A DNA stretch of 36,300 nucleotides, taken from contig JABFSN010000187.1 of the NCBI GenBank assembly GCA_013140575.1, forward strand, positions 1-36,300, given 5' to 3'. The position numbers and the translations under genes are program-made. This DNA comes from Phycisphaerales bacterium (GTDB lineage: Bacteria; Planctomycetota; Phycisphaerae; UBA1845). Shown piece by piece: positions 28,841 to 32,889 of the stretch (the stretch's first letter is position 1; each line of letters opens with the position of its first letter). The notes beneath the pieces were generated by a model. That model was not told the DNA's origin, did no database searches, and saw only the letters and a program-made list of their open reading frames with translations.

Positions 28841-29965
28841 GTGGCCATCAGGACCGTGCAAGTCGATGGGGCCGGGGGTTTCGGCGACGGCGTCCGCGAC
28901 GCGGTCGACGTGCTGAACGGCGGCGGGCTGGTCGTATTTCCGACGGAAACGGTGTACGGGATCGCGGCCCGGGCGGACCGTCCGGACGGGTTGCGTCGCT
29001 TGCGGGAGGCGAAAGACCGGACCGATGGCAAGCCGTTTACCATTCACATAGGCGATCGCGCGGATGCGGCGCGGTACGTCCCCGACATGGGACCGCTCGC
29101 GCGGCGGCTGACAAAAAAAGCGTGGCCCGGACCGCTGACGGTCCTGTTGACCACGGCCGATCCGGCGTCCACGCCGTTCGGGTCGGCGCTGGACGCGGAG
29201 GCGCTGGACGCGGTATACGACGCCGGGACGGTGGGGCTGCGATGTCCGGATTCGGCGGCGGCGTGCGATCTGTTGCGGCGAATAGACGGCCCGGTCGCGG
29301 CGGCCAGCGCCAATCGCGCGGGGCGGCGTCCGGCGCGCACGGTGGATGAGGCACTGGCCGACTTGAACGGATTCGTCGATCTGGCCTTGGACGGCGGTCC
29401 GGCGCGACATCAACGCGCGTCGACCATCGTGCGGATTCGAGGCGACGATTTTGAAATCGTGCGTGACGGCGTGTACGACGAACGCATGTTGCGATCGTTC
29501 GCGCGATTGAACCTGCTGTTCGTCTGCACCGGCAACACCTGCCGCAGTCCGATGGCCAAGGTGGTCGCCGAACGGCTGGTGGCCGAACGGTTGGGTTGCG
29601 ACGTCGGGGATCTGGCCGGTCGAAACATCGACATCACGTCGGCGGGCACGTCGGCGGGGTCGGGTAGCCGGGCCGCGGCCAACGCCGTGGAGGTGATGCA
29701 GCGGCGGAGGCTGGAATTGAACGGGCATCGGTCGCAGCCGTTGACGGTGGGATTGGCGAATCAGGCCGACCACATCTTCGTCATGACGGAATCGCATCGG
29801 GAGCAGGTGCTGGAGCTTGTGCGTTCGGCGGGGGAGCGTGCGGTGCGGCTGGCCGGGGAGGGAGACATCGACGATCCGATCGGGGGGGACGTGGAGGCGT
29901 ACGAAAAGTGTGCGTCGCAGATTGAGACGGCGCTCCGGGTGCGGCTGGCGGAGGTGGCGTTATGA
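28841..29965 (+). CDS. Fusion of Sua5/TsaC (threonylcarbamoyl-AMP synthase) and YwlE-type low-molecular-weight phosphatase
   Basis: 374 residues, starting at GTG 28841 with GGAG seven bases upstream. Residues of about 5-205 are a Sua5/YrdC domain (GGLVVFPTETVYGIAARAD; REAKDRTDGKPFTIHI; KKAWPGPLTVLL; TVGLRCPDS; PVAAASANRAG; STIVRI). It makes threonylcarbamoyl-AMP from threonine, bicarbonate and ATP for the t6A modification at position 37 of ANN-decoding tRNAs. Residues of about 222-370 are a low-molecular-weight phosphatase with P-loop CTGNTCRS (Cys229, Arg235) and a general-acid loop DDPIGGDVEAY. Thr233 in the loop, and a loop like DPFGG, match Bacillus YwlE, a protein-arginine phosphatase, rather than tyrosine phosphatases, which have Ile there. 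Both active sites look intact. The stop overlaps the rpiB start (ATGA). Arginine specificity is inference from Thr233. Confidence 0.9.
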   Translation: MAIRTVQVDGAGGFGDGVRDAVDVLNGGGLVVFPTETVYGIAARADRPDGLRRLREAKDRTDGKPFTIHIGDRADAARYVPDMGPLARRLTKKAWPGPLTVLLTTADPASTPFGSALDAEALDAVYDAGTVGLRCPDSAAACDLLRRIDGPVAAASANRAGRRPARTVDEALADLNGFVDLALDGGPARHQRASTIVRIRGDDFEIVRDGVYDERMLRSFARLNLLFVCTGNTCRSPMAKVVAERLVAERLGCDVGDLAGRNIDITSAGTSAGSGSRAAANAVEVMQRRRLELNGHRSQPLTVGLANQADHIFVMTESHREQVLELVRSAGERAVRLAGEGDIDDPIGGDVEAYEKCASQIETALRVRLAEVAL

Positions 29966-30411
29966 GAGTCGCGTTGTCCAGTGATCATCGCGGGTTCGCG
30001 GCGAAACAGAAAATCGTCCTGCTGCTGCAGCAACTGGGCCACGAGGTGAAGGATTTCGGCTGCGACAGCATGGCGAGCTGCGATTACCCGGACCACGGTT
30101 TGCGGGCGGCCGAAAGCATTTCGGTGGGGCAGGCGGACGCGGGCATCATGATCTGCGGGACGGGAATCGGCATGTCCATCACGGCCAACAAGGTGCGGGG
30201 CGTGCGTGCGGCGTTGTGTCACGATGAGTTGACGGCGGAGATGTCGCGGCGGCACAACGACGCCAACGTCTTGTGCCTTCCGGGTGACCTGCTGGGGGAC
30301 GAGTTGATCAAGCGGGTGGTGGACGTGTGGTTGAATACGAAGTTCGAGGGCGGTCGGCATCGCCGGCGGCTGGAGAAAATCGCGCACTATGAAACCAACG
30401 GGCGTGGTTGA
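29962..30411 (+). CDS. rpiB: Ribose-5-phosphate isomerase B (RpiB/LacAB family)
   Basis: 149 residues, the full length of the family. Motifs are SSDHRGFAAKQKI at the start, DFGCDSMASCDYPDHGLRAAESI, the active-site Cys in GIMICGTGIGMSITANK, and GVRAALCHDELTAEMSRRHNDANVLCLPG. The enzyme interconverts ribose-5-phosphate and ribulose-5-phosphate in the non-oxidative pentose phosphate pathway, in the cytoplasm. The start ATG overlaps the stop of the Sua5-phosphatase fusion (ATGA), so the two are translationally coupled. In Bacillus subtilis the orthologues ywlC, ywlE and ywlF (rpiB) are near neighbours, and the same order is seen here. Allose-6-phosphate isomerase activity is possible in this family. 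Confidence 0.95.
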   Translation: MRVALSSDHRGFAAKQKIVLLLQQLGHEVKDFGCDSMASCDYPDHGLRAAESISVGQADAGIMICGTGIGMSITANKVRGVRAALCHDELTAEMSRRHNDANVLCLPGDLLGDELIKRVVDVWLNTKFEGGRHRRRLEKIAHYETNGRG

Positions 30412-31729: not shown

Positions 31730-31956
31730 CGGATGAGTGTGCTTCCGAGCGTGCCGACGCGCGGACCCGACGATCGTGAAAAGATGGGCCGGAATCCGAT
31801 GCCGGGGGTTGGGGCCCGGTTGGTCGGGTCAAACGTCGACCCCAACGGTCCGCGGCATCGGACCGGATCGGCCGGAATCATTTCGCCAATCAAATCGGAA
31901 CGACGGCGCCGACCGTCGTGCGGGGGCGGCAGGGTGGATCGTCCACGGCGACAATC

Positions 31957-32889
31957 ATGAGCGAACCGCTGGAAATCGTTTTTCTGCTGGGTTGCACGGG
32001 GTGCGGGAAAGGGGAGGCCGGCCGACTCGTGGCGCGGCGTCTGGGGGCGGAGATCATCAGCGTCGATTCGATGAAGGTCTATCGGGGAATGGACATCGGG
32101 ACGGCCAAGCCGTCGGTCGAAACGCGACGGGCAGTGCCGCATCATGTCATCGACGCGGTGGATGCGTACGAGACGTATTCGGTGGCCGATTTCGTGCGGC
32201 AGGCGGAGGAAGCGGCCGCGGAAATCACCGCCCGGGGGCGGAGAGTGCTGGCGGTGGGTGGGACGGGGCTGTACATCAAAGCGCTGAGCGAGGGTTTGTT
32301 CGAGGGCCCGGGCGCAAACGCCGAAGTGCGCGGGGCGTTGCACGCACGAGTGAGCGCGGAAGGCGCGGAAGCGTTGCATGGGGAGTTGTGCGCGGTCGAT
32401 CCGGAGGCGGCGGCCAGGATTCACCGCCACGATGAACGGCGGATCGTGCGGGCGCTGGAGGTCTATGCCTTGACCGGGCGCCCGATCACGGCGTTGCAGC
32501 AGCAATGGGACCGGGGCCGGACGCGGCATCGGTGCGTGTACGTGGGTCTGCGACGGTCGATGGAAGATCAGAACCGGCGGACGAATGCACGGGTCAGGCG
32601 ACTGTTGGAGCTGGGCTGGGTGGAGGAGGTGCGTCGACTGTTGGGCGATCCACGGGGATGGAGCCAATCGGCCCGGCAGGCGCTCGGGTATCCCGAGTTG
32701 GCCGACCATGTCGCGGGACGGCTGTCCCTTGCAGACGCGGTCGAAAAGATCAAAATCTCGACGCGGCAGTTCGCGAAATCGCAGAGAACGTGGTTCAAGC
32801 GGTTTCGCGAGACGCGTTGGGTCGATGTGTCGGCGGACGAATCGGCCGATGCTGTTGCGGACAAGGTATCGGCGGGGGTGGGCGCGTGA
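31957..32889 (+). CDS. miaA: tRNA dimethylallyltransferase (MiaA), divergent P-loop
   Basis: 310 residues from the ATG at 31957, normal for MiaA. Motifs: ISVDSMKVYRGMDIGTAKP, HHVIDAVDAYETYSVADFV, VGGTGLYIKALSEGLF, HRHDERRIVRALEVYALTGRP, RRLLELGWVEEVRRLL, SQSARQALGYPEL and TRQFAKSQRTWFKRF. MiaA adds a dimethylallyl group to the exocyclic amine of A37 in tRNAs reading UNN codons. The P-loop is unusual: GCTGCGKG (12-19) instead of the family GPT(A/G)xGKT/S, so Gly19 stands where the Mg-binding Ser/Thr normally is. All other hallmark segments are present, so the gene is unlikely to be dead. The stop overlaps the start of the ABC ATPase gene (GTGA at 32886-32889), indicating coupling. An extension of the frame upstream to 31918 is judged shadow. 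Confidence 0.92.
   Translation: MSEPLEIVFLLGCTGCGKGEAGRLVARRLGAEIISVDSMKVYRGMDIGTAKPSVETRRAVPHHVIDAVDAYETYSVADFVRQAEEAAAEITARGRRVLAVGGTGLYIKALSEGLFEGPGANAEVRGALHARVSAEGAEALHGELCAVDPEAAARIHRHDERRIVRALEVYALTGRPITALQQQWDRGRTRHRCVYVGLRRSMEDQNRRTNARVRRLLELGWVEEVRRLLGDPRGWSQSARQALGYPELADHVAGRLSLADAVEKIKISTRQFAKSQRTWFKRFRETRWVDVSADESADAVADKVSAGVGA

Follow-up and report, generated by a model that had tools for sequence, protein, structure and literature searches.

The window analysed here is a 36,300-nucleotide stretch of a Phycisphaerales genome, where it makes up contig C207 of a 5.05 Mb assembly (268 contigs, 96% complete). On its forward strand, to which all features given below for the window belong, a single ORF of 374 amino acids with a GTG start (28841-29965) encodes a TsaC-type L-threonylcarbamoyladenylate synthase half (28910..29470) followed by a YwlE-type low-molecular-weight phosphatase half (29516..29938). 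Pfam assigns residues 24-210 to Sua5_yciO_yrdC (PF01300, E 2.3e-42) and residues 226-366 to LMWPc (PF01451, E 2.6e-24), both above the curated cut-offs and separated by about 15 residues; the protein also scores above the cut-off of TIGR00057, L-threonylcarbamoyladenylate synthase. The end of the fusion overlaps by 4 bp (ATGA) with the start of rpiB, which encodes ribose-5-phosphate isomerase B (29962..30411; PF02502, E 2.3e-57, with TIGR01120 likewise above its cut-off). The original prediction had placed a t6A enzyme and a YwlE-type phosphatase in one chain coupled to rpiB, and both points are borne out. It had likened this arrangement to ywlC/ywlE/ywlF, which we take to be the gene order of Bacillus. 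An assembly artefact is excluded, since both domains lie in one ORF in 150/150 genomes fetched from the phylum, the window's own included. This count takes in three fusions cut by contig ends and one genome (G192, locus L173) in which the TsaC half falls into two reading frames and which was counted as a fusion. From the 150 fusion proteins, 75 were chosen among which no pair shares at least 50% identity. The fusion beside rpiB is confirmed as real.

The AlphaFold2 model of the whole fusion is confident (pLDDT 96.2, pTM 0.89). Residues 2-222 of the model superpose on Pyrococcus abyssi Sua5 (6f89_B; Z 29.6, rmsd 1.8, 209 residues aligned) and residues 222-374 on YwlE (4etn; Z 24.5, rmsd 1.6, 143 aligned). 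The tRNA half had been named Sua5 in the original prediction. This name has to be corrected, because PF01300 and PF01451 are the sole Pfam matches and the Sua5_C domain (PF03481) is absent from the fusion, and the half is therefore TsaC-type and not a two-domain Sua5. Like E. coli TsaC (YrdC, 1hru) it has one catalytic domain without SUA5, an intact set of KxR/SxN and T/S/R residues, and a Lys where Sua5 has Asn62 (mapped by alignment); unlike TsaC, it bears a C-terminal phosphatase. The two-domain Sua5 proteins (PF01300 and PF03481) share with the fusion a homologous catalytic domain and a second domain at the same chain position, yet in the fusion this second domain is an LMW-PTP instead of PF03481, and a gap of about 15 residues hardly offers space for the PGM/HY loop. 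TsaC-like domains joined to another enzyme are also found in TobZ, HypF and TsaN (8ide), but there the partners act in (threonyl)carbamoylation, whereas the partner here is a phosphatase.

According to PMC10321239 and PMC9654439, the KxR and SxN motifs form the ATP site of TsaC/Sua5 and the T/S/R residues its threonine site, and the former source states that yeast Sua5 requires all of them. In the alignment the window's protein keeps K58-D-R60 (29012..29020) and S156-A-N158 (29306..29314) as well as T35, S194 and R208; these and all catalytic residues below were taken from a MAFFT alignment, which may misplace residues in gapped loops. Apart from HypF (L184), the fusion is the sole PF01300 protein found in its genome. 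It can be argued that the TsaC half is inactive in the window's organism and that t6A is made with another enzyme, as 35/147 genomes of the survey have lost at least two of the four ATP-site residues. The window's protein retains all four, and its genome, at 96% completeness, yielded no PF01300 protein besides the fusion and HypF; we consider this alternative very improbable. The N-terminal half, as the only TsaC detected in the organism, would convert threonine, bicarbonate and ATP into threonylcarbamoyl-AMP for t6A37 of tRNA.

In the phosphatase half, the P-loop C229-T-G-N-T233-C-R235-S-P (29525..29551) carries the predicted motif with Cys at residue 229 and Thr233 at the fifth position, as originally claimed. 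The general-acid loop D345-P-I-G-G (29873..29887) was placed by aligning 150 fusions. The claim that it matches YwlE holds (DDPIGG, against DPFGG in B. subtilis YwlE) except at the Phe position, which is Ile in the window's protein and in 75/150 fusions and Phe in 22. Among the aligned fusions, 150/150 keep Cys, Asn and Arg of the P-loop and 149/150 keep Asp345, with a gap in the remaining one. This half would be a YwlE-type cysteine phosphatase with Cys229 as nucleophile, Arg235 binding the phosphate, Asp345 as general acid and Thr233 setting selectivity.

The likeness to YwlE had also been proposed from the start, and the YwlE entries are indeed the nearest solved relatives by sequence (1zgg, 2.1e-19; 4kk3; 4eti; 4pic, 9.6e-19), followed by the T. 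tengcongensis phosphatase 4egs (1.1e-14) and Vibrio Wzb 7dhd (1.3e-11). With YwlE/PtpB of Firmicutes (1zgg, 4kk3, 4pic) the window's phosphatase shares the LMW-PTP fold, the CTGNTCRSP motif with its Thr and the DPxGG loop, at 31-34% identity in the structural alignment; it differs in sitting behind a TsaC domain and in the Ile of the acid loop. Firmicutes with YwlE/PtpB have McsB in the same genome, and so does the window's organism.

Which substrate such a phosphatase would prefer is linked to the fifth P-loop position (PX5): according to PMC8001253, which reports the YwlE selectivity result of Fuhrmann et al., YwlE/PtpB is steered towards pArg by Thr and towards pTyr by Ile. Of the 150 fusions, 119 have Thr at PX5 and 16 have Ser, followed by Leu (8), Arg (3), Ile (2), Met (1) and Val (1), and the position changes 20 times on the tree of the phosphatase half. 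All 15 fusions with neither Thr nor Ser come from genomes with McsB. This variability would suit another explanation, namely that the half is a general LMW protein-tyrosine or small-molecule phosphatase with a chance Thr and that the arginine kinase of the genome is unrelated to it. The fold comparison fits this as well, with Z 24.5 for YwlE (4etn) against 24.0 for the tyrosine phosphatases (4egs, 2cwd, 7dhf); fold alone cannot tell the two apart. A clade that has McsB and mostly lacks such a phosphatase (15/18 genomes, described below) points the same way. We nevertheless find this explanation unlikely: YwlE comes first by sequence, with E-values some three to five orders of magnitude below that of the next LMW-PTP, Thr or Ser is retained in 135/150 fusions, and CTGNTCRSP is present in 9 of the 12 standalone YwlE-like proteins examined (L330, L332-L339). 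As for the other three, L347 (CTGNLCRS) and L348 (CSGNICRSP) are extra copies in fusion genomes and L340 has an unreadable motif. Most fusions, not all, are thus predicted to be arginine phosphatases.

The P-loop also varies elsewhere. In family f63 (12 fusions, for example L076, L081 and L104) Asp replaces the second P-loop cysteine in 12/12 (CTGNTDRS and variants). This cysteine is presumably the redox-switch cysteine of YwlE. In genus g88, in the context of the same family, dN/dS is higher for the phosphatase half than for the TsaC half in 14/15 pairs.

The original prediction had considered that no genome with the fusion might hold an arginine kinase, which proves not to be the case. In the window's own genome the single guanido kinase (352 residues) matches 6fh1, a protein-arginine kinase, along residues 10-348 (E 2.7e-83), a match that spans the guanido-kinase and C-terminal McsB domains and identifies the McsB partner. 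McsA lies directly upstream of it, with a UVR motif found by Pfam and CxxC pairs seen by eye. The genome further encodes a ClpC-like ATPase (868-aa frame) with two GTEH motifs, which we take to hold the residues of the pArg pocket. The fusion is the sole YwlE-like LMWPc protein found there; the second LMWPc protein (L003) has the motif CTANACRSQ and is ArsC-like. Two further frames of 153 and 243 aa, L297 (G000:C192:86251-86631) and L299 (G000:C250:9522-10172), hold Clp N-domains with no ATPase in frame.

The reading that fits these data best, to which we give a probability of roughly 70%, is that of a bifunctional protein, TsaC and YwlE-type arginine phosphatase, tethered but catalytically separable. 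The phosphatase half would most likely dephosphorylate arginines that McsA-McsB marks for a ClpC protease. The fusion itself probably arose early in Planctomycetota by the joining of adjacent genes in a tsaC-ywlE-rpiB cluster.

The survey for the fusion in planctomycetes, proposed with the original prediction, found it widespread. A query with the fusion protein matches 280/294 genomes of the phylum. The 150 best matches, which fall in 150 different genomes, were fetched; as these were chosen by score, the sample favours fusions. From the 144 remaining genomes 77 more were taken, 71 at at least 90% completeness and 6 without McsB, and full-length fusions were found in 27 of these by profile coverage, with 4 more (family f29) having a diverged phosphatase half, so that 31/77 add to the best 150 out of 294. 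The nearest named relatives, among the best 80 of 590 loci, are Phycisphaerae and other planctomycete MAGs, the best at 50% identity. A search beyond the phylum, with C[TS]GNTCRSP required, gave among these best 80 only loci named as planctomycete or simply as 'bacterium' (L269, L271, L288), and none of 93 matching plasmid records covers over 80% of the query. The fusion, a novel form of known enzymes, is genuine and occurs widely across the phylum.

The gene that keeps company with the fusion is rpiB. It lies downstream on the same strand in 105/150 genomes, was not found despite room in 40 and could not be judged in 5; at named loci with room it follows the fusion in 60/73. When the window's neighbours were compared across the 80 named loci, rpiB was kept in 63 and an ABC ATPase in 3, while the HlyD-like, hypothetical, MiaA-like and second ABC neighbours were seen in 0/80 (the flanks reach at most 3 kb, and MiaA could lie outside them). 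Among the neighbours in the window, rpiB is therefore the only conserved one. The MiaA-like tRNA dimethylallyltransferase, recognised by eye at 31918-32889 on the forward strand, 1.5 kb past rpiB, would also act on tRNA position 37.

McsB (PF00217) is found in 280/294 genomes, which answers the doubt about an arginine kinase for the phylum. For the same reason the joint presence of McsB and fusion says little, and co-occurrence was dropped as evidence. The genomes without detected McsB number 14: six are among the 150 fusion genomes (G053, G102, G162, G189, G219 and G263; 73-93% complete) and the other eight show no full-length fusion. With several of them incomplete, the 14 are too few for a co-occurrence test. 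The B. subtilis control genome gave no match to PF00217 or Clp_N. In B. subtilis mcsB and clpC are adjacent genes, and this stretch seems absent from the control, so the zero there is not informative.

The most interesting part of the survey, in our view, is the repeated occurrence of a pseudo-TsaC state, in which the ATP site of the fused TsaC half is lost. The four residues K58, R60, S156 and N158 are all kept in 97 of the 150 fusions, while 16 fusions retain three, 15 two, 10 one and 12 none; in 79 named loci, L293 being left out, the corresponding numbers are 51, 5, 0, 10 and 13. Where at least three of the four are kept, T35, S194 and R208 are also kept in 166/169 fusions. The phosphatase P-loop is kept where the TsaC half has decayed. 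A second, standalone full-length PF01300 protein (a match other than the fusion, with E <1e-50 and an open frame <700 aa) occurs in 36 of the 150 genomes, and the two of these that were checked by Pfam are two-domain Sua5 proteins with PF03481. In a table of 147 genomes, from which the contig-end rows L116, L183 and L177 were left out, fused TsaC halves with at most two of the four residues are found in 32/36 genomes with the second gene and in 3/111 without it (G274, G188, G289). The second gene is present and at least three residues are kept in G031, G219, G209 and G261.

How strongly the second gene and the decay are tied depends on how kinship is treated. The Fisher value is 1.5e-24, a figure that ignores kinship and should not stand alone. 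The decayed state is found in 9/60 families, with 9-11 changes of state on the tree of the phosphatase half and 8-9 on the full-length tree. Independent pairs were taken on supported branches. With decay defined as at most two of four residues, on average 4.0 of 8 pairs on the phosphatase-half tree and 5.4 of 10 on the full-length tree go in the same direction and none in the opposite one, with no difference in the remaining pairs (median p of the sign test 0.125 and 0.06). With decay defined as at most one residue, 3.2 and 4.5 pairs go in the same direction (p 0.25 and 0.125), and on the phosphatase-half tree one pair is opposite in a few pairings. By phylogenetic pairs, of which there are few, the association is not significant (median p 0.06-0.25). 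In genomes with a standalone Sua5-type gene as well, the active site of the fused TsaC has usually decayed, and the decayed domain is mostly kept as a folded, selected part of the phosphatase chain; in some relatives the domain is missing.

What the decayed halves do can be approached through their conservation. They keep WPGP and mostly PTE(T/S)xY, and the one dead member modelled, L267, gives a confident structure (pLDDT 94.4). Simple Nei-Gojobori estimates of dN/dS for dead TsaC halves are close to those of the phosphatase halves on the same chains: 0.046-0.104 against 0.033-0.085 in genus g62 (0/4 residues; three of ten pairs with unsaturated dS), 0.25 against 0.24 in g66 (one residue left) and 0.11-0.20 against 0.09-0.19 in f2 (two residues left), with 0.06-0.26 in intact fusions; folding constraint alone could yield such low values. 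On these grounds the dead TsaC halves are selected, folded and probably non-catalytic domains. One further step is to see in them a lasting non-enzymatic scaffold or regulator of the protein-arginine phosphatase in several planctomycete lineages, which we offer tentatively, as it is more doubtful than probable. If true, a tRNA-modification enzyme would have become a pseudoenzyme domain in the arginine-phosphorylation system, typically in lineages whose t6A synthesis passed to a separate gene of Sua5 type. A threonine sensor, with the ATP site lost and the threonine site kept, was dropped as a general reading, since only 12/45 dead halves keep all three threonine-site residues.

Another hypothesis is that the fusion is a frozen accident, a lost stop codon that left two independent halves, and that a dead TsaC is a relic on its way to deletion. 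Such an origin is compatible with the bifunctional protein proposed above. The eroded threonine site fits it, and so does the dead pair L152/L164, with a dN/dS of 0.47 in the TsaC half against 0.19 in the phosphatase half, as well as four genomes in which the TsaC half is missing and a separate TsaC/Sua5 is present (G231, G242, G251 and G278). The confident fold of L267, the kept motifs and the dN/dS values of g62, g66 and f2 speak against it. We regard the hypothesis as a serious one that falls somewhat short of an even chance.

The relatives in which the halves have come apart are found in several families. Family f5 alone has an intact fusion (G185), a dead fusion together with a second gene (G111), and two genomes, G231 and G242, with a standalone CTGNTCRSP phosphatase and TsaC/Sua5 as a protein of its own (344- and 353-aa frames); in G242 rpiB still adjoins the phosphatase, and in G231 no rpiB lies within the fetched stretch. 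In family f8, G251 has YwlE adjoining rpiB and a separate TsaC/Sua5 frame. In family f2, G278 encodes a 317-aa YwlE-RpiB fusion with CTGNTCRSP (L333, reverse strand, 2048-2999) and also a separate TsaC/Sua5 protein (399-aa frame). A similar pairing may be suggested by the T. tengcongensis LMW-PTP 4egs, deposited as 'Ribose 5-phosphate isomerase RpiB', a link that exists by name; there is no TsaC half in that entry, which sets it apart from the window's protein. Families f49 and f77 (two genomes examined in each; for example L349-L352) have instead a single-domain TsaC followed by rpiB with no phosphatase. These states show that rpiB often stays with whichever part remains, and those of f5, f2 and f8 that the phosphatase can outlive the t6A enzyme. 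Judging from kinship codes in place of a rooted tree, we infer the unfused states to be descendants of the fusion. To the extent that sequences can tell, the TsaC and phosphatase functions are separable. The original view that the two functions stay together is contradicted, as TsaC residues are lost, or the half is missing, in several lineages in which the phosphatase persists.

The f49 and f77 genomes also bear on arginine phosphorylation. All 18 of them (14 + 4; 93-100% complete) are McsB-positive, and in 15/18 no LMWPc protein was found; in the other three, two LMWPc proteins are ArsC-like by motif (CVENACRSQ) and the motif of the third was unread. The kinase thus does not need this phosphatase, and in the 15 genomes arginine phosphorylation, if any, is reversed otherwise. 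Since, in addition, Thr at PX5 is not universal (119/150, with Ser in 16 and other residues in 15), arginine dephosphorylation cannot be deduced from the fusion everywhere. The original interpretation as a whole is partly supported.

In a literature search whose result lists were covered in part, we found no paper describing the TsaC-YwlE fusion and none on McsB or arginine phosphorylation in planctomycetes; in the passages of PMC4395418 examined, McsB appears in a reference only and Planctomycetes in the abbreviation list only. The data point to a McsA-McsB-ClpC system of arginine phosphorylation across an entire phylum. They also provide a natural series, from the intact fusion through the dead-TsaC fusion, the standalone phosphatase and the YwlE-RpiB fusion to TsaC-rpiB without phosphatase, which permits a direct test for mutual influence between t6A synthesis and arginine dephosphorylation. 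Because one active site is repeatedly lost while the other is kept, a domain-deletion test would be meaningful.

Two observations concern a single fusion and a small group of fusions. In L126 (G018) the fusion continues in frame into a sequence that by eye resembles aldehyde dehydrogenase, within an open frame of 995 aa, and this extension is either a further domain fused to the first two or an error of assembly. The four f29 loci (L341-L344) have a fusion beside rpiB with the P-loop C(L/V)GNLNRS and a weak phosphatase half (E 1e-10 to 1e-4), while the TsaC half matches at 1e-34 in one pair of loci and at 1e-20 in the remaining pair, a mirror case of the TsaC decay.
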